Below are positions 800-12,862 of a DNA stretch of 48,796 nt, one piece after another. The stretch is from Cupriavidus sp. AU9028 (GTDB lineage Bacteria; Pseudomonadota; Gammaproteobacteria; Burkholderiales; Burkholderiaceae). The notes under the pieces were generated by a model that worked only from the letters and a program-made list of their open reading frames with translations, had not been told where the DNA came from and did not search any database. Each line of letters opens with the position of its first letter. Within the stretch, counting starts at the first letter, position 1. Location of the stretch: positions 1 through 48,796 of the forward strand of contig NZ_JAIMCG010000024.1 in the NCBI RefSeq assembly GCF_019795295.1, in the 5' to 3' direction. The position numbers and the translations under genes were made by a program.

Positions 800-3139
800 T
801 CAACGCCCGTTCGGCCGGATCAACGCCCCCGACGGCCCGCTCGAGCCGCCGAACCAGGGCTCGACCGCCGCCTGGTTGTGCTCGACCAGCACCGAGTAGT
901 TGTCCTTGAAGCTGTTGGGGAAGAAGATCCTGCCCGGCGTGGTGACCCGGTTGCCGCGCACCAGGATGCCGGACAGGGCCGCGCCCGGCATCCCCATCAC
1001 CGCGATGCCGCGTGACACGTCCTGCTTGGCCGTGCGCATCAGGAACGTGCCGTCGCCGTCCTCGACCACGGTATTGTCGATGCAATCGACATTGAACGTC
1101 GGCAGGTAACTGTTGATGCCGTACGGACCGTAGGCAGCAACGGCGATGCCATCGCCCGCGTTCTCGTTGTAGTTGTGGTCGATGACGCTGTCGAACACGC
1201 CGCCGAAGAACAGCACCGAGTTCAGCGCGTGACCGTGCATGTTGTGGAACTCGTTGTGGCTGACGGTGATGCGCAGATAGCCGGTGGTGATGTCGATCAC
1301 GGAACTGGAGTCCGGCACCACATCCCACGGCCGCTCCAGCTCCATGATGCGGCCACGAATGGACCGCAACGGCCGGTACTGGCCGACGCCGTGCCCGGCG
1401 ACGATCGAGATCAGCACGTTCTCGGGATTGCTGGTCCCCACCAGGTCCCAGTTCGGATCGGCCGCGAGGATGACCTGGTTCGCCGTGGCCGAGGCGATCC
1501 GGCCCAGATACGCGCCGCCGCCGCCGTCCGTGGTGAAGAACTGATTGGTCGGCGTGTACGTCATGTTGCGGAACAGGTTGTAGCCGACGTACAGATTGCG
1601 CGCGGCATTGGCCGTGGTGCCGTTGACCATCGGGCGCGCGGCGCCGATCACCACCCCCTCGTTGATCTCCGTGGGCGATCCGAGCAGATTGCGCGTGATG
1701 ACGACGTTCTGGCTGTTCGCGATGGCATAGTCGCCGCGATTGGAGCGAAGGCCGGAGAGCAGCACGCCGTCGCCATAGTCGATCAGCAGCGTCTTGGGCG
1801 CGTTCAGCGTGGAATTGAGGATGCGCAGGTCGGGACCGGACAGCTTGATCAGCCGGGTATGCTGCCCGCCGCCGGTGTAATCGGCCGACACCTCGATGGT
1901 GACGCGATTGATCAGCACGTGGCCATGCCTGTCCGGATCGCTGCCCAGGCTCGCGGCGCGGATCACGGCATCGCGGTGCGGTGCACGAATGGTCAGCGAG
2001 GCCACCCCGAAATGGCTGTCGCCGACCACCCACGCCTTGGGCGTGGCGCCCGCCGACGACGCCGTGCCGGTCAGCACGGTGGCAGCCTCGGATTCGCCCA
2101 CCAGATGCTGGTAGCGGCGCAGCGACAGAGGCCGCGAGATCGCATACTGCCCCGCCGGCAACTGCACCACCACCGGGCCGTCGTTGCTGCGGTTGTTGTC
2201 CAGGCACGCCTGCAGTGGCCCGCTGTTGTCGGTGGTTCCGTCGCCGTTCAGCCCGCCACAGGTGACCACCCTCGGCGCCGGCGGCGCCGGCACGATGCGG
2301 ACCGGCACCGGCAAGGAGGCGGTGGCGTCCTTGTCCGGCGAGCCGATCCACAGGTGATAGGGACCGGGCGGCAGATCCGCCGGCACGCTCGCGGTCAGCG
2401 CGGTGTCGTCGGTCTGCTCGACCGGCAATTGCACCTGCCGGTTGTCCGCCGATTGCAGGTAGACCTCCCGGGTACCGTTGATGTTCTTGCCGAACAGTCG
2501 CAGCTTGCCGCCGGCCTCGGCGCCGCAATTGACCAGCCGGTGCGCCGGCGCTTCCAGCGGCGCGTCGGTTGCCGGCGTGCCGAGGATCCATTGCGGCTCC
2601 GGCCGGTTGACGATCCCTTCGATCGGCGGCACGGCGGGGTCATGATCCTCGATGCGCCACGCGTAGGGCGCGTAGTGCAGCTCCGGCGGAATCTGGAAGA
2701 TCAGGCCGGTGGAACTGAGCGGAATGGCCGGGGCGGTGATGTTGCTCTGCTGCACGGCAGAGCGCCAGTCGGTGGTGCCGCGCGACAGCGGCGCGATGCG
2801 CACGGTCTTGCGGCCGTGGGCGAAGGCGCCGCTCATCAGCACGTTCTGCCCGGGTCGGTTCTCGCGCGAGGTCCAGAACACCGAGTTGCTGCTGTAGACG
2901 GGGTCGTGCCCCGGACGCATGTTCTGCACGTCGACGAAGACGGCGGACTTGCCGCTTCCCCGGTCGCCATTGCGCCCGATCCGCGGATTCTCGCAGCCGC
3001 TCAGGGTGCCGGTTTCCCCGATCGGCGCCACTGGCGTCTCGGACAATGTGGCGGCCGAAGCCAGGCCGACCGTCTCCGCCTGCAACCACAGCGCCGCCGC
3101 CACGGCACATGCCGCCGCCCCAAGAACCTTGCCCTTCAT
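800..3139 (-). CDS. Secreted right-handed parallel beta-helix protein (pectate lyase-3-like)
   Basis: A 779-residue exported protein. The start at 3139 is preferred over an upstream in-frame codon because it places a normal signal peptide (MKGKVLGAAACAVAAALWL, cleavage near ASA) at the N terminus. Residues of about 250-330 carry GDGTTDNS followed by a CLDN segment and LPAGQY, the hallmark opening of pectate-lyase-3/GH28-type beta-helices; the rest holds repeated N-rich rungs such as NVVITRN and ISHNEFHN-like turns. The first 230 residues look like an additional beta-rich domain. The family cleaves, binds or epimerises polysaccharides; which of these applies is unknown. No partner genes for polysaccharide metabolism are next to it. 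Confidence 0.75.
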   Translation of the reverse strand: MKGKVLGAAACAVAAALWLQAETVGLASAATLSETPVAPIGETGTLSGCENPRIGRNGDRGSGKSAVFVDVQNMRPGHDPVYSSNSVFWTSRENRPGQNVLMSGAFAHGRKTVRIAPLSRGTTDWRSAVQQSNITAPAIPLSSTGLIFQIPPELHYAPYAWRIEDHDPAVPPIEGIVNRPEPQWILGTPATDAPLEAPAHRLVNCGAEAGGKLRLFGKNINGTREVYLQSADNRQVQLPVEQTDDTALTASVPADLPPGPYHLWIGSPDKDATASLPVPVRIVPAPPAPRVVTCGGLNGDGTTDNSGPLQACLDNNRSNDGPVVVQLPAGQYAISRPLSLRRYQHLVGESEAATVLTGTASSAGATPKAWVVGDSHFGVASLTIRAPHRDAVIRAASLGSDPDRHGHVLINRVTIEVSADYTGGGQHTRLIKLSGPDLRILNSTLNAPKTLLIDYGDGVLLSGLRSNRGDYAIANSQNVVITRNLLGSPTEINEGVVIGAARPMVNGTTANAARNLYVGYNLFRNMTYTPTNQFFTTDGGGGAYLGRIASATANQVILAADPNWDLVGTSNPENVLISIVAGHGVGQYRPLRSIRGRIMELERPWDVVPDSSSVIDITTGYLRITVSHNEFHNMHGHALNSVLFFGGVFDSVIDHNYNENAGDGIAVAAYGPYGINSYLPTFNVDCIDNTVVEDGDGTFLMRTAKQDVSRGIAVMGMPGAALSGILVRGNRVTTPGRIFFPNSFKDNYSVLVEHNQAAVEPWFGGSSGPSGALIRPNGR

Positions 3140-3282: not shown

Positions 3283-3987
3283 CTACCGTGCGGCTTGCAT
3301 GGCAAGGGCTTGCGCAGCCGGCATGCGGCGCCAGTACGGTGGGTAATAGAGCACGAGACCGTTCGCGTCGACCACGATCTCGGCAGAAAAGCCGGAATCC
3401 TGATCGTGGTACTCCGCCGCTGCCGCTGCCGCACCGCTGCCCTGCCCTGCCCCGGCCTGGCCGTCGGACGCGGTGCCGCCAAGCGTTTCATAGCGGAAGC
3501 GGCGAGTGCCGTCCGCATCGTTCGCGAGCAGCGTGTATCGTTGCCGCACCGGCCGCACCTGCAGCTCGGGCAGCCGGACATAGGCCATGGTGAACTCGCG
3601 ACCCACCCCGGCGGACCATTCCTCCTCCGCCACCGGCAGCGTATTGGTGATGGGCGTCGCCATGATGTCGATGAAGCGGGCCGCGGCAAGGTCCTCGCGG
3701 CGCCCGGCTGCGTCGTGCCAGCCCTCATCGTCGCGCCACAGCGACAGCGTCCGCGTGCGCCCGAGATAGACGGTGCAGGCGCGCAGTTGCCGGAAGGCCC
3801 AGCGCGGGCCGCAATCGAGGCGATAGGCCAGTTCGAGCGGCCCGTCGTCCCACTGCGCCTGCATGCGGCCGTGCACGGTCACGCCATCGGACGACGGCAG
3901 CACGGCGGCGGCATCCAGGCCGGTCTGGGTCATCCAGGACCAGCACACCAGTTCAGGGACGATGGGCTGCAACGTTGGCATCGACAT
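3283..3987 (-). CDS. Putative glycolipid-binding family protein (PF06475/DUF1089-like)
   Basis: A 234-residue protein without signal peptide or membrane segment. The C-terminal segment VDANGLVLYYPPYWRR matches the closing motif of the putative glycolipid-binding family (PF06475), and the LDCGPRW and TNTLPV segments fit that family too. Function is not established in any member I know. The start at 3987 is chosen because GAGAG lies about six bases upstream; an ORF extending to 4101 has no such support. It is divergent from the bacteriophytochrome gene across 189 bp, which must hold both promoters. An Ala-rich stretch (GSGAAAAAAEYH) near residue 185 is probably a surface loop. Confidence 0.7.
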   Translation of the reverse strand: MSMPTLQPIVPELVCWSWMTQTGLDAAAVLPSSDGVTVHGRMQAQWDDGPLELAYRLDCGPRWAFRQLRACTVYLGRTRTLSLWRDDEGWHDAAGRREDLAAARFIDIMATPITNTLPVAEEEWSAGVGREFTMAYVRLPELQVRPVRQRYTLLANDADGTRRFRYETLGGTASDGQAGAGQGSGAAAAAAEYHDQDSGFSAEIVVDANGLVLYYPPYWRRMPAAQALAMQAAR

Positions 3988-4176
3988 AGGGATCTCTCGC
4001 GCGCGGAAACGAGGGCCTGCGCCAGGGCCATCATGGGCGGCCCTGGCTCGCACTGCCCAAGATAGGGCAGATTCGGCCGCACCGCCAACCGTCCGGCGCA
4101 AGCGCTACGCCACATCCAGGCGCATCGCCATTCCCCTATGCGAGAATGGCTGCCATAGCACACGGATGGAGCCACG

Positions 4177-6591
4177 ATGCAGCAGTCCTCGAACACCGCC
4201 GCACGGAACGACGCGGGCATGGCCGACTGCGCCCGCGAGCCGATTCACATCCCCGGCGGCATCCAGCCTCATGGCTACCTGTTCGCAATCGATGAGGCCG
4301 GCACCATCGTGCAGGCGAGCGCGAACGTGGCGGAGCTGGCAGGTGGCGAGGTCCAGTCCGTGCTCGGCAAGCCGCTGCAAGACGTGCTCGGCGACGCCGC
4401 CGCTGCGGTGCTGCAGGCATTGCACCTGCCGGAGTCGGCGGGCACGCCCTTCTATGTCGGCTCCATCGAGGCAAGGCGCAATGGCGCGCTGGCAGCGATG
4501 GCGGTTCTGGTTCATCGCCATGCGGACGTCGCCATCGTCGAACTGGAACCGGCGCACGGGGCAATCGACGTGTTCCGCTCGATGTACCCGATGGTGCGGG
4601 CGTTCATCGAGAGCCTGCAGGGCGCCAGCACGGTCGAGGAGCTGGCGCGGCTGGCGGTGCACGAGGTGCATCGCATCGCCGGCTTCGGCCGGACCATGGC
4701 GTACTGCTTCGATGCGGCGGGAACCGGACGGGTGATCGCGGAAGTGGTGGAGCCCGGCTACGACTCGTACATGCATCACCATTTCCCAGGCTCGGATATC
4801 CCGCAGCAGGCGCGTGCGCTCTATGTGCTGAACCGCATCCGGCTGATCGCCGACGCCAACTACCGGGCTGCGCCGCTGGTGCCGCCCGTGCACCCGGTCA
4901 CCGGTCGCCCCACCGACCTGACCTATTCGTCGCTGCGCAGCATCTCGCCGGTGCACGTGCAGTACATGAAGAACATGGGCACGCTCGCTTCGATGTCGAT
5001 GTCGATCGTGGTCAAGGGCCGGTTGTGGGGCCTGATCTCCTGCCACCACGCCGAACCGCGGCTGCCGCCGTTCGAGGCGCGCAGCGCCTGCGAGCATATC
5101 GCCCAGGTGCTGTCGCTGCAGATCGAGGCCAAGGAGGAGCACGCCGAGGCAGCCTACCGGCTGCTGCTGCGCGAGCGGCTGTCGCGGCTGCTGGCGGCGA
5201 TGGCCAATGCCGAGGATTTCGTCGACGCACTGGCGGGAGAAACGGACAACCTGCTGGCCCTGACGGCCGCCAGGGGCGCCGCGGTGGTGTTCGAGGGGCG
5301 CATCGTGCGGATCGGCGCCACGCCCGGGCAGCCGGTCATCGAGCGGCTGGTCAAGTGGCTCGATACGCGCGACGAGGACGTCTACTGCACCGACAACCTG
5401 GCCTCGCTGTGGAACGCCGAGGCCGGCGACACCGCGTCAGCTTCCGGGAGCGAGCCGGACCCGGATAGCGCCGGCATTCTTGCCCTGTCGATCTCCCGGT
5501 TGTACCGCAACTACGTGATCTGGTTCCGCCCGGAGACAGTGCGGACAATCGAATGGGCAGGCGATCCCGGGCAAAAGCTGGCGGGCCAGGCTTCGACGCT
5601 GTCGCCACGCAGCAGCTTCGAGACCTGGGTCGAGACCGTGCGCAATCGCTCGAAACCCTGGCGTCCCGCGGAAATCGAAATCGCGCAGGAATTTCGCGGC
5701 GCGTTGCTTGGCATCGTGCTGCGCCGGGCCGAGGAAATGGCCCAGCTGGCGATGGACCTGACCCGTGTGAATCGGGAACTGGAGGGCTTTTCCTACACGG
5801 TCTCGCATGACCTGCGCGCCCCGCTGCGCCATATCGTCGGCTTCGCCGACCTGCTGCGCGAGATGGAATGGGCCCGGCTGTCCGAGCGGGGCCGCCATTT
5901 CGTCGAGCGGATCACCTCGCAGGCCCGCTTCGGCGGCAAGCTGGTCGACGACTTGCTTGCGTTCTCCCGCATGAGCCGCGCGGCGCTGCATCCGCAGCGG
6001 GTGGACATGGACGCGCTGGTGCGCCGGCTGATCGCCGAGGAAGGCCGCGACGCCGCGCATCCGATCGACTGGCAAGTTGCCGAACTGGGCACGGTGACGG
6101 CCGACCCGCTGCTGATGGAAATCGTGATGCGGAACCTGGTTGCCAACGCGGTAAAATTCACTGGCCCTGGGCCGGACGGTGCCGCCCCGCCCGCAGCCCG
6201 CATCCACATCGGCCGCTCGCCGGGTGAGGGCCAGCTTGCGGGCCAGGACGTCTTCTTCGTGCGCGACAACGGGGTCGGCTTCGACATGCGCTATGCGGAC
6301 AAGCTGTTCGGCGTCTTCCAGCGGCTGCACCGGAACGAAGAATTTCCGGGTACCGGCATCGGGCTGGCCAGCGTGCGCCGCATCGTCGAGCGGCACGGCG
6401 GCAAGACCTGGGCGAGTGGAGAAGTGGGCAAGGGCGCCACGATCAGTTTCTCGCTGCCGCAAGCTTATTCGCCGCAGCAGGTCGACCGGGAAACCTCGGC
6501 GAGCGAAACGGCGGCGAGAATCGCGGCTGTCTCCGCGACGCAGTCATACAAACCAGTGTTGAAAGATACCAAGAAAGAAGGGGAGCGGTGA
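4177..6591 (+). CDS. bphP: Bacteriophytochrome sensor histidine kinase
   Basis: An 804-residue red/far-red light receptor that binds biliverdin and autophosphorylates. Domains in order: PAS (about 20-115) with the chromophore Cys at residue 18 in ADCAREPIHIPGG; GAF (about 145-305) with the chromophore-binding DIPQQAR segment; PHY (about 325-500) with the tongue motif PRSSFE and KPWRPAE; HisKA with phospho-acceptor His544 in SYTVSHDLRAPLRH; and HATPase with DNGVGFD and GTGIGLA. All expected modules are present, so it should be a working phytochrome kinase. GGAG lies about seven bases before the ATG. The response regulator gene overlaps its stop, so the pair is one operon. Confidence 0.97.
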   Translation: MQQSSNTAARNDAGMADCAREPIHIPGGIQPHGYLFAIDEAGTIVQASANVAELAGGEVQSVLGKPLQDVLGDAAAAVLQALHLPESAGTPFYVGSIEARRNGALAAMAVLVHRHADVAIVELEPAHGAIDVFRSMYPMVRAFIESLQGASTVEELARLAVHEVHRIAGFGRTMAYCFDAAGTGRVIAEVVEPGYDSYMHHHFPGSDIPQQARALYVLNRIRLIADANYRAAPLVPPVHPVTGRPTDLTYSSLRSISPVHVQYMKNMGTLASMSMSIVVKGRLWGLISCHHAEPRLPPFEARSACEHIAQVLSLQIEAKEEHAEAAYRLLLRERLSRLLAAMANAEDFVDALAGETDNLLALTAARGAAVVFEGRIVRIGATPGQPVIERLVKWLDTRDEDVYCTDNLASLWNAEAGDTASASGSEPDPDSAGILALSISRLYRNYVIWFRPETVRTIEWAGDPGQKLAGQASTLSPRSSFETWVETVRNRSKPWRPAEIEIAQEFRGALLGIVLRRAEEMAQLAMDLTRVNRELEGFSYTVSHDLRAPLRHIVGFADLLREMEWARLSERGRHFVERITSQARFGGKLVDDLLAFSRMSRAALHPQRVDMDALVRRLIAEEGRDAAHPIDWQVAELGTVTADPLLMEIVMRNLVANAVKFTGPGPDGAAPPAARIHIGRSPGEGQLAGQDVFFVRDNGVGFDMRYADKLFGVFQRLHRNEEFPGTGIGLASVRRIVERHGGKTWASGEVGKGATISFSLPQAYSPQQVDRETSASETAARIAAVSATQSYKPVLKDTKKEGER

Positions 6592-7028
6592 TGCTGAGGC
6601 CGATATTGCTGGTGGAGGACAATCTTGACGACATCGAGCTGACGCTGATCGCTCTGGAAAAATCGCGGATTGCCAATCCCGTCGTTTCCGTGCGCGACGG
6701 CGTCGAGGCGCTCGACTACCTGCGCCGGGAGGGCGAGTGGGCCGGCCGCGAGAAGATCAATCCGGCAGTGATCCTGCTGGACAAGAAGCTGCCGCGGCTG
6801 GACGGTCACGAAGTGCTGGCCGCGATCCGGGAGAGCGAGGAGCTGCGCCGGATTCCGGTGGTGATGCTGACGGCCTCGCGGGAGGAGAAGGATCTGCTGC
6901 GCAGCTACGACCTGGGCGTCAACGCCTATGTGGTCAAGCCAGTGGAGTTCGACGACTTCATGGGCGCCATCAACGATCTGGGCATGTTCTGGGCGGTGCT
7001 GAACGAGCCGCCGCCCTTCGGCGCATGA
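6591..7028 (+). CDS. Single-domain response regulator of the phytochrome pair (Rcp1-like)
   Basis: A 145-residue receiver with no output domain, like the Rcp1/BphR partners of phytochromes. The acidic pocket EDN, phospho-acceptor Asp64 in LLDKKLPRLDG, Thr94 and Lys116 are all in place. The usual residues after the acceptor in this family are LNLP-type; KKLP here adds two positive charges beside the active site. ATG at 6591 overlaps the bphP stop by one base (TGATG), with AGGGGAG five bases upstream; a GTG three bases earlier is possible but too close to that site. It probably receives phosphate from the upstream phytochrome, and possibly from the convergent fusion kinase. Confidence 0.93.
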   Translation: MLRPILLVEDNLDDIELTLIALEKSRIANPVVSVRDGVEALDYLRREGEWAGREKINPAVILLDKKLPRLDGHEVLAAIRESEELRRIPVVMLTASREEKDLLRSYDLGVNAYVVKPVEFDDFMGAINDLGMFWAVLNEPPPFGA

Positions 7029-7106: not shown

Positions 7107-9458
7107 TCAGCGGAACCGGGGCAGGCGGACGCGGAAGGTTGCGCCCTTGCCCGGGCCGTCGCTATGGGCGCTCACCGTGCCGCCATGCAGCGCCACCAGG
7201 CTCTTGACGAGCCAGAGCCCAAGGCCCAGTCCCGAACTGCGGCGCACGGGGGCGCCACCCCTGGCCTGCTCGAACCGCTCGAAGATCCGGTCCAGGTCCT
7301 CCGGCGCAATGCCGGCGCCGGTATCGCGCACGGTCAGTTCCGCGTGCTCCTCGCTGGCGGTGACGGCGATCTGCACCGTGCCGCCTTCGGAGAATTTCAC
7401 CGCGTTGGTGAGCAGGTTCCAGATAACCTGCTTCAGGCGGCTCTCATCCCCCAGCACGATGCAAGAGGCCAGGGTCTGCGCGACCAGCGTGATGCCGCGC
7501 GCTTCGGCATTGACACGAATGTCCTCGGCAACGATGCCTGCCAGCGCGCCCAGGTCGATCGGCTGCAGGTCCACCGACAGTTTGCCGGTGACGATCGCGC
7601 CGCTGTCGAGCAGATCGTCCACCATCAGGCTTAGCTGCCGTGCGTTGCGCTCGATGACGGTCACCGCACGGTCGACCAGCGAGGCGTCCGCCGCGCGCTG
7701 CAGCAGCGCCGTCCACGACAGGATGGCGTGCAGCGGCGAGCGCAGCTCGTGGCTGACCGCCGCGATGAAATGGTCCATCGCCCGCGTGGTTTCCTCGCTG
7801 CGCTCGCGCGCATGCTTCTCTTCCTGCGCCATCGCCAGGTGGCGCAACTCGACCAGCTTGCGTTCGGTGACGTCGAGCGTGAAGCCGACCAGCGACTGGC
7901 TGCCGCCGGTGCTGGTACGGGGCGCCCCCCGCGCCAGCAGCCAGCGCACCGAACCGTCCGGCCAGTTCACGCGGTACTCGACCTCGAAATAGCGCCCCTG
8001 CTCGATCGCCCCCTCAATCACGCTGCGCACACGCTGGCGATCTTCCGGCTCGATCAGATCGCCGAACAGCCGCTGCTCGGTGACCGGCTCGCCCAGCGAC
8101 AGGCCGAGATTGCGGTAGCACTGGTCGGTGCAATTGAGCACGCCGCTGGACAGGTCCCACTCCCAGGCGCCGACCCTGGCGAAGCTGAGGACCTCCTGCA
8201 GCCGCTGCTGCTGGCTGCGCAGCTCGGCATTGGCCTCGTCGATCAGCACCTGGCGCAACTGCGCCTGCGAGCGCAGCTTGGCCCGCTCGCGCTGGCTGCG
8301 CTCGGTGTCGGCGACCGTGTCGGTGACGTCGCTGAGCGTGAAGATGACCAGGTCGGTGCCGCGCCCGGCCAGCTCCCGCCGCCCTTCGCCCACGGTCAGC
8401 GGTCCCGGTGAGGGAACGCGGACGGCGCGGGCCTGCCAGTAGCGCTCGGTCCGTGCGGGCTGCCCTTCCCCTTCCCCGTTGCCGTCCTCATCAGGCTTGG
8501 GAAGATCGTAGCGGAGCACCGGCGACTGGCGCCGTTCGCCCCGGTTGATCGTGCGCAGCGTGTTCTCTACCCAGGCGCGCCGCGCCGCGCGCTGCCCCTC
8601 GGGCACCTGCTGATTGATATCGTAGACAGAGCGACCGCGGATGGCATCGAGCGTTGCGCCCACCAGTTCCAGATACCGGTGGTTCGCCAGCACGACGCGG
8701 TCGTGCGCATCGACGATCAGATGCGCCTCGGGAAGGACGTCGAACACCAGCGCCGCCGCCTGCCGTTCCGCGGCCTCGTCATGCACCGTCGTCAGGCTGT
8801 GGTCGAGGATCTGCACCGGTTCGCCGGGGACGGATGCGTGCGGCACGACCGGCACCGGCTCGGTGCCGTCATCGATCAGCCGCAGCAGACGATCGAAGGC
8901 GTCCTGTGCACCGCGGCAGGCAAGCGCGACCTCCTCGGGCGTACGCACCTGGTCCCGCAGCGCGTGCAGGAACTGCTGCCAGCGCGGCCCCGGCGGGCCG
9001 TCGCCGCGCAGGTAGCGCAAGGGATGCGGGTGCAGCGCCTCGGACAAGTTGCGATACAGCAGGGCCCCGCCCAGCTGCGATCCTTCGATGACGTAGCACA
9101 GGCCCCAGCGATAGGCCGGCTCGGCCGCCAGCGGCATCCAGCTCGCGGCCCTGCGCTCGACCTCGGCGGGCAGGACGCCGGCCGGCATCGCGGGATCGGC
9201 GAGATCGGCATCGATCAGCGCAAGGCGCCAGCGATGAGGCAGCAGCGATGGCGCTTGCGGACCGTCGTCGAAACGACGCAGCCAGCTTTCCAGCGGCTCC
9301 AGCCACAAGCGCAGCAACAGCAGGTGGTCGCGATATTCGGTGAGGCCGGGATTGGACCGCGCGAGCGGCATGGCCTTGTCGAGGACGTGATGGCGCTCGC
9401 CCGTTGCTTCGCGCAGGGCTGACAGCACGTCCAGGGTGGGCACGGCTGATGCGGTCAC
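7107..9458 (-). CDS. Heme oxygenase domain fused to PAS-PAS-histidine kinase
   Basis: About 783 residues. The first 190 form a bacterial heme oxygenase of the BphO/HemO type: ATGERHH places the proximal heme-ligand His at residue 23, and YVIEGSQLGGALL is the distal-helix signature. Two PAS domains follow (about 235-360 and 415-530; the second holds the W-E-W-D and RDITERK-like VTERKL ends), then HisKA with His570 in AAVSHELRSPLH and HATPase with DTGAGI and SSGLGLGLWL. It faces the bphP operon end to end. Heme oxygenase makes the biliverdin that phytochromes need, and no other heme oxygenase gene is present here. GTG at 9458 is the proposed start because CGAGG lies seven bases upstream; a TTG at 9563 would add 35 unlikely residues. 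Confidence 0.88.
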   Translation of the reverse strand: MTASAVPTLDVLSALREATGERHHVLDKAMPLARSNPGLTEYRDHLLLLRLWLEPLESWLRRFDDGPQAPSLLPHRWRLALIDADLADPAMPAGVLPAEVERRAASWMPLAAEPAYRWGLCYVIEGSQLGGALLYRNLSEALHPHPLRYLRGDGPPGPRWQQFLHALRDQVRTPEEVALACRGAQDAFDRLLRLIDDGTEPVPVVPHASVPGEPVQILDHSLTTVHDEAAERQAAALVFDVLPEAHLIVDAHDRVVLANHRYLELVGATLDAIRGRSVYDINQQVPEGQRAARRAWVENTLRTINRGERRQSPVLRYDLPKPDEDGNGEGEGQPARTERYWQARAVRVPSPGPLTVGEGRRELAGRGTDLVIFTLSDVTDTVADTERSQRERAKLRSQAQLRQVLIDEANAELRSQQQRLQEVLSFARVGAWEWDLSSGVLNCTDQCYRNLGLSLGEPVTEQRLFGDLIEPEDRQRVRSVIEGAIEQGRYFEVEYRVNWPDGSVRWLLARGAPRTSTGGSQSLVGFTLDVTERKLVELRHLAMAQEEKHARERSEETTRAMDHFIAAVSHELRSPLHAILSWTALLQRAADASLVDRAVTVIERNARQLSLMVDDLLDSGAIVTGKLSVDLQPIDLGALAGIVAEDIRVNAEARGITLVAQTLASCIVLGDESRLKQVIWNLLTNAVKFSEGGTVQIAVTASEEHAELTVRDTGAGIAPEDLDRIFERFEQARGGAPVRRSSGLGLGLWLVKSLVALHGGTVSAHSDGPGKGATFRVRLPRFR

Positions 9459-9587
9459 GTAAGGCCTCGATGCGCGCGCGGCGGCGATGTTGTTATTCAG
9501 AACCTCGACATGGTACAGGAAGTCATGTTGTTGCCGCCTGCAGGACAGCCGTGCGCGAGGCAATCGCCCGCTCTCGCAAGGCCGGTG

Positions 9588-12760: not shown

Positions 12761-12833
12761 CCGTCATCCCGGCGAACGCGGGGACCCAGTGGCTTTTGAA
12801 GGCGCTGGATTCCCGCTTTCGCGGGAATGACGG
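12761..12833. repeat. Intergenic hairpin repeat, third (diverged) copy
   Basis: The ends CCGTCATCCC and GGGAATGACGG are near-perfect inverted copies, and the inner part GGGGACCCAGTGGCTTT matches the repeats at 1-83 and 135-233 with several differences. It lies between convergent genes, the usual place for this element. Confidence 0.75.
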
Positions 12834-12862
12834 GGTGGTGGTCCAAGCTCGTCAGCAATCCG

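Follow-up and report, generated by a model that had tools for sequence, protein, structure and literature searches.

An apparent in-frame fusion of a bphO-type heme oxygenase and a PAS-PAS histidine kinase in the bacteriophytochrome cluster of Cupriavidus sp. AU9028

A heme oxygenase and a histidine kinase in one frame

In Cupriavidus sp. AU9028, a bphO-type heme oxygenase and a PAS-PAS histidine kinase are encoded by a single continuous frame (GTG at 9458 to a stop at 7107, minus strand, 783 aa) within the 48,796 nt stretch of DNA analyzed here (the window, which is the whole of contig 16 of the source assembly). The domains follow each other in the order heme oxygenase-PAS-PAS-HisKA-HATPase_c, and the gene is convergent with bphP and the gene of a single-domain response regulator. 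An earlier note on this DNA had described a complete heme oxygenase joined to a kinase and facing a bacteriophytochrome operon, and the frame, the Pfam matches, the conserved motifs and the convergent bphP and receiver genes bear this description out. Comparisons with related sequences make it probable that the gene arose as a lineage-specific, in-frame fusion of bphO and the kinase gene, each half keeping its own task, so that the two functions would be additive. The relevant features are:

4177..6591, plus strand: bphP, bacteriophytochrome histidine kinase of 804 aa, with PAS_2, GAF, PHY, HisKA and HATPase_c (Pfam)
6588..7028, plus strand: single-domain response regulator, overlapping bphP by 4 nt (Pfam)
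7107..9458, minus strand: fused gene, bphO-type heme oxygenase plus PAS-PAS histidine kinase, GTG start, 783 aa (frame and Pfam)
8865..9458, minus strand: heme oxygenase domain, approximately residues 1-198, with His23 and EGSQLGG at 125-131 (Pfam, alignment, AlphaFold, Foldseek)
8876..8878, minus strand: TGA, one frame off the fused frame, at the position of the bphO end of relatives (sequence comparison)
8757..8864, minus strand: linker of about 36 residues between the two former genes (AlphaFold confidence low where modeled, 206-223)
8784..8855, minus strand: in-frame GTGs with first bases at 8855, 8846, 8816 and 8786, candidate kinase-only starts (no clear ribosome-binding site by eye)
8328..8777, minus strand: PAS domain 1 (Pfam; boundaries from the AlphaFold model)
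8175..8324, minus strand: long inter-PAS helix (AlphaFold model)
7872..8174, minus strand: PAS domain 2 (PAS_3), with C-T-D-Q-C at its start (Pfam, AlphaFold model)
7590..7868, minus strand: HisKA/DHp, phospho-acceptor His at 7751-7749 in SHELRSP (Pfam, AlphaFold model)
7116..7565, minus strand: HATPase_c domain, with GLGLGLW (Pfam, AlphaFold model)

At its widest, the frame spans 7107..9563 on the minus strand, with a first TTG at 9563 (818 aa); the GTG at 9458 is the likelier start, because each of the nine bphO genes of congeners offers, near the same place, a GTG with a Thr codon right after it, in some of them as one pick among several candidates. All Pfam matches score above their cut-offs: Heme_oxygenase (PF01126) 34.1 bits, for a curated cut-off of 23, PAS_4 40.4, PAS_3 60, HisKA 50.4 and HATPase_c 107.5. 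Moreover, each half matches a separate, conserved gene of relatives over its length, and the two halves are therefore more than chance matches in a long frame. Scans for sigma-70 promoters and terminators gave no signal above shuffled sequences, and a tRNA scan found no tRNA.

Residues His23 (which we take to be the proximal His) and EGSQLGG (presumably the distal Gly-rich helix) are invariant across 34 aligned heme oxygenases, including that of the window. Likewise, of the 46 columns with ≥95% conservation among 90 separate heme oxygenases, the window oxygenase keeps 45, the sole departure being L for V at position 133; in that set, where some genomes are present twice, the rows themselves keep a median of 100% and a minimum of 95.7% of these columns. 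The oxygenase and kinase halves were modeled separately with AlphaFold. The oxygenase part reached a mean pLDDT of 88.5, with residues 206-223, in the linker, mostly below 50, and a Foldseek search of the PDB with this model retrieved heme oxygenases in all 50 listed rows (TM approximately 0.52-0.62; E < 0.001 in one row), so both model and search indicate a heme oxygenase fold. Fold and family are the same as in the solved structures 1j77 (HemO) and 1sk7 (pa-HO), which are 20-27% identical to the window oxygenase in structural alignment; these are, however, single-domain enzymes, whereas the oxygenase in the window is not a stand-alone protein but runs on into the kinase frame.

The kinase half matches a profile of the PAS-PAS kinases of the cluster, which itself includes the window sequence, with 898.5 bits; this is an orthologue-level match in which the H, N and G motifs are conserved and their columns invariant. 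Motifs SHELRSP and GLGLGLW are present in the window and in 36/36 relatives of the kinase, with some genomes counted twice. The kinase model has the layout PAS-helix-PAS-DHp-CA, with an unsure arrangement of the domains (pTM 0.41), and PAS-bearing or other kinases occupy the top rows of its Foldseek search. We dropped the conserved C-T-D-Q-C of PAS 2 as a candidate sensor element, as it is altered in several relatives. By its position next to bphP and the regulator gene, the kinase half also belongs to the phytochrome cluster. For the regulator, the most similar solved receivers are 5ic5 and 5brj, which we take to be the phytochrome regulators of Ramlibacter and Agrobacterium.

As the earlier note had it, the only heme oxygenase of this neighborhood sits in the fused gene. 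Neither PF01126 nor DUF2470 detected a second heme oxygenase, and hence a separate bphO, anywhere in the source assembly (4.68 Mb, 42 contigs, 94.56% complete), and its one PHY domain is the one at the fused-gene locus.

Elsewhere in the window, a large protein encoded at 803-3139 on the minus strand is pectate-lyase-like (Pect-lyase_RHGA_epim match), and its gene adjoins those of a deaminase (278-733) and of a Glycolipid_bind protein (3286-4101). Short repeats are found at 13-450, where the translation holds two copies of RASGDP...AFEDAGFPPARE, and at 12796-12850, with LDSRFRGNDG in the translation near 12800; both look like dispersed intergenic repeats.

The phytochrome cluster in relatives and the origin of the fusion

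Among 60 genomes of the genus, this bphO occurs in ten, including that of the window, and is fused in the latter alone. In the nine other congeners, bphO stands alone and a distinct PAS-PAS kinase gene, whose product is 51-55% identical to the window kinase, directly follows it; both genes converge on bphP and the regulator gene, as in the window. Taking these nine together with one Paraburkholderia locus, with starts chosen by hand, the kinase start follows the bphO stop by 15-20 nt in seven of the ten relatives and overlaps it by 4 nt in the other three. The same picture emerges from named genomes, a scan of which gave 126 relatives; among the best 80 of these, the oxygenase frame ends 170-232 codons downstream of where the match begins in 80/80 loci and is fused in none, in line with the statement of the earlier note that a separate bphO is the usual state.

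Kinase, bphP and regulator accompany bphO in the convergent layout in 23 of these best 80 of 126 named loci, at least seven of which come from genomes already counted among the congeners; each of the 23 has bphO and kinase as distinct genes. Thus, in Cupriavidus, Paraburkholderia and Azoarcus indigens, the convergent cluster has the same four parts in the same order as the window, but differs from it in the separation of bphO and kinase. Identities between the window and the 23 loci, over the best blocks, are 45-66% for the oxygenase, 50-64% for the kinase, 58-67% for BphP and 76-84% for the regulator. In five of the 23, from Paraburkholderia/Burkholderia, bphO and kinase are parted by a further receiver gene on the opposite strand; these extra single-domain receivers (L078, L083, L086, L092 and L102) are 55-88% identical to that of L086.

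A search for the architecture, as the earlier note had proposed, also covered PF01126 matches in overlapping samples of the order (399 genomes, 49 with matches), class (369, 15) and phylum (398, 52), which include the window. The nine other frames of at least 430 aa that were opened from these samples yielded no fusion of oxygenase and kinase. In eight of the nine, the oxygenase match closes a frame that simply stays open upstream of it and, in the ninth (G834), the PF01126 match is weak and falls inside a receiver-GGDEF-EAL protein. Some congeners carry, away from the cluster, a second heme oxygenase of another type (G009:C21, G004:C2, G035:C127 and G013:C23), which outscores BphO against PF01126.

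The cluster closest to that of the window, among the best 80 of 126, is from Azoarcus indigens (L073) and is nearer than those of congeners, with identities of 65-66% for the oxygenase, 64% for the kinase, 67% for BphP and 82% for the regulator; bphO and kinase are separate genes in it. The window pairs with A. indigens in the BphP tree (100/98), beside the Cupriavidus clade, as well as in the kinase tree (100/99); because both end branches are flagged as long, this pairing is insecure. As Azoarcus belongs to another order, these trees suggest that the cluster may have moved horizontally between lineages. Private changes were counted in window and Azoarcus sequences against seven Cupriavidus outgroup rows. 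In the oxygenase (92 columns), the window has three and Azoarcus six (p 0.51), so the window oxygenase changes no faster than that of Azoarcus; the respective counts are 12 and 16 for the kinase, 39 and 31 for BphP, and 3 and 11 for the regulator, with no p < 0.05. By these sequence comparisons, both halves of the fusion are evidently still under constraint.

The Azoarcus bphO ends in ...DRLLALAAPRGR-stop and the kinase begins 14 nt later, in a different frame. In the window, DRLLR is followed by a TGA in the +1 frame (8878-8876), while the oxygenase frame continues into the kinase; the fusion would thus be best explained by a small indel close to the bphO end, where the DNA alignment places an ambiguous gap of 20 nt. 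The earlier note saw the fused frame correctly, but missed both this off-frame TGA and the joining of two neighbor genes of a conserved cluster.

Because the TGA is one frame off, the fusion hangs on a one-frame difference in a single assembly. A sequence or assembly error, with two truly separate genes, or an inconsequential frameshift that leaves a private, functionless fusion and a kinase translated from an internal GTG, would produce the same picture, and we regard this as unlikely, albeit the most serious of the alternatives. It would account for the position of the TGA, at the bphO end of relatives, for the in-frame GTG at 8855, which stands 20 nt after it, at the usual spacing of a kinase start, and for the restriction of the fusion to one assembly, with none of the named loci (0/80; best 80 of 126) and none of the nine other congeners with bphO sharing it. 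Conversely, nine other window genes that were scanned have family matches in unbroken frames, as do bphP and the regulator gene, so the error rate looks low, and there is no long homopolymer at the junction of bphO and kinase. The linker is also in frame with both halves and coding-like, with a G+C content at codon position 3 of 0.80-0.90, although the same would be expected if the kinase began at the GTG at 8855.

Retention of the kinase after loss of bphO

In three congeners, internal deletions that differ from one to the next have removed most of bphO, and the kinase downstream is intact. Two of them, G021 and G035, contain bphP, regulator and kinase, with only remnants of bphO, from which 432 (+1) and 468 nt, respectively, are missing in comparison with L018. 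In the third, G013, the kinase is accompanied by a remnant that lost approximately 495 nt, and there is no bphP or regulator gene at the locus (L163, G013:C23:315000-332000); among the 60 genus genomes, this is the sole kinase without them. The remnants, which carry internal deletions, are located as follows:

L161:4100-4369: bphO remnant in G021
L162:4298-4526: bphO remnant in G035
L163:7617-7818: bphO remnant in G013

The deletions, two of which are in frame, differ in their ends, and the tree requires at least two losses. Remnants L162 and L163 retain a short open leader in frame to the old stop, while that in L161 has a shifted frame whose stop abuts the kinase start; the three kinases are full length and have their motifs. 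Other PF01126 matches occur elsewhere in the genomes of G035 and G013, and none in that of G021. With most of bphO gone from these three congeners, the kinase still functions there, or is at any rate retained.

This observation is the strongest evidence against the oxygenase as a sensor for the kinase. The earlier note had proposed that the oxygenase domain is a sensory input, by which heme occupancy, turnover, CO or biliverdin, or O2, would alter kinase activity and pigment supply would gate light signaling. The idea draws on the heme-binding domain placed covalently ahead of the PAS-PAS kinase, on the lack of any other heme oxygenase found in the assembly, and on the constant company of kinase and bphP in the genus. 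Nevertheless, the kinase of relatives is a separate protein that keeps its conserved motifs without a fused oxygenase and is intact in G021, G035 and G013, and it shows no need of an oxygenase domain; additionally, the linker is predicted to be flexible, unlike a rigid signaling helix. The proposal did not hold up in the relatives and we deem it improbable for the fused protein, in which a new coupling is nonetheless possible. Its more specific form, in which heme occupancy or turnover in the oxygenase half shifts the balance of kinase and phosphatase activities on a regulator shared with BphP, appears slightly less probable still. Were it true, a light signal would be passed on only while chromophore is being made, and the fusion would have fixed in one chain a contact that the separate bphO and kinase products of relatives would make as partners.

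A survey of the 60 genus genomes found PHY in 12 and the kinase family in 13, including all 12 with PHY (Fisher p 9e-12, with relatedness ignored), and bphP adjoins the kinase in each of these 12. It is plausible from this co-occurrence (12/12), and from the likeness of the regulator to 5ic5 and 5brj, that the kinase shares the regulator with BphP. Alternatively, the kinase might act in a pathway apart from BphP, the fusion merely joining biliverdin supply to an unrelated kinase. Since G013 keeps the kinase without bphP and regulator, the kinase can have a role outside BphP, and the additional receiver adjoining it in the five Paraburkholderia/Burkholderia loci, which is possibly its own partner, means that its partner may not be the bphP regulator. 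Yet bphP lies beside the kinase in 12 of the 13 kinase-bearing genus genomes, and bphP and regulator genes adjoin it in 23/23 kinase-bearing named loci, which had been chosen for bphO, and a separate pathway thus seems very improbable.

An additive fusion, our preferred reading, would join two tightly spaced neighbors of a conserved convergent phytochrome cluster, bphO and the gene of a soluble PAS-PAS histidine kinase. Given its conserved fold and residues, the oxygenase half would still convert heme into biliverdin for the BphP encoded opposite. The kinase half would be a second kinase of the light pathway, as the separate kinase of relatives would be, and probably acts as a kinase or phosphatase on the same single-domain regulator. 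The fusion would then tie the oxygenase and kinase products to a 1:1 ratio.

Related clusters and significance of the fusion

For many bacteria, we know of no partner of the BphP pathway beyond its regulator. In the betaproteobacterial genome G178 (L057), a PAS-HisKA-HATPase-receiver kinase is located behind bphP and regulator and, in G224 (L061), also betaproteobacterial, a kinase with an N-terminal receiver-like part follows bphP and a regulator. For Ramlibacter tataouinensis, a putative operon hmuO-RtBphP1-RtBRR-RtBHK is described, where RtBRR is CheY-like and RtBHK an "atypical hybrid" kinase, and inactivating RtBHK is reported to affect rod division in the same way as losing either BphP (PMC6848086). 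As in the window, a heme oxygenase, a bacteriophytochrome, a single-domain regulator and a further histidine kinase are clustered, but as four separate genes in one putative operon (PMC6848086). Because the RtBHK mutant behaves like the bphP mutants in that account, a second kinase in a bphP cluster has a precedent (PMC6848086). In Pseudomonas syringae, the operon bphOP1 comprises bphO and bphP1 without a regulator (PMC5654926). It resembles the window in that bphO is beside bphP and supplies biliverdin, and differs in its separate bphO and in lacking a second kinase as well as the regulator (PMC5654926). No description of an oxygenase-kinase fusion was found in the literature searched, most subscription papers being outside its reach.

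The fusion is an unusual variant of a known light-sensing cluster and a way into the signaling of such clusters, but so far falls short of proving a new type of sensor. The comparison singles out one PAS-PAS kinase that always accompanies bphP in the genus, in 12/12 phytochrome-bearing genomes, and that has outlived bphO in three. With biliverdin synthesis and a kinase possibly united in one chain, the fused protein would offer a test, in one gene, of whether chromophore supply and signaling are linked.
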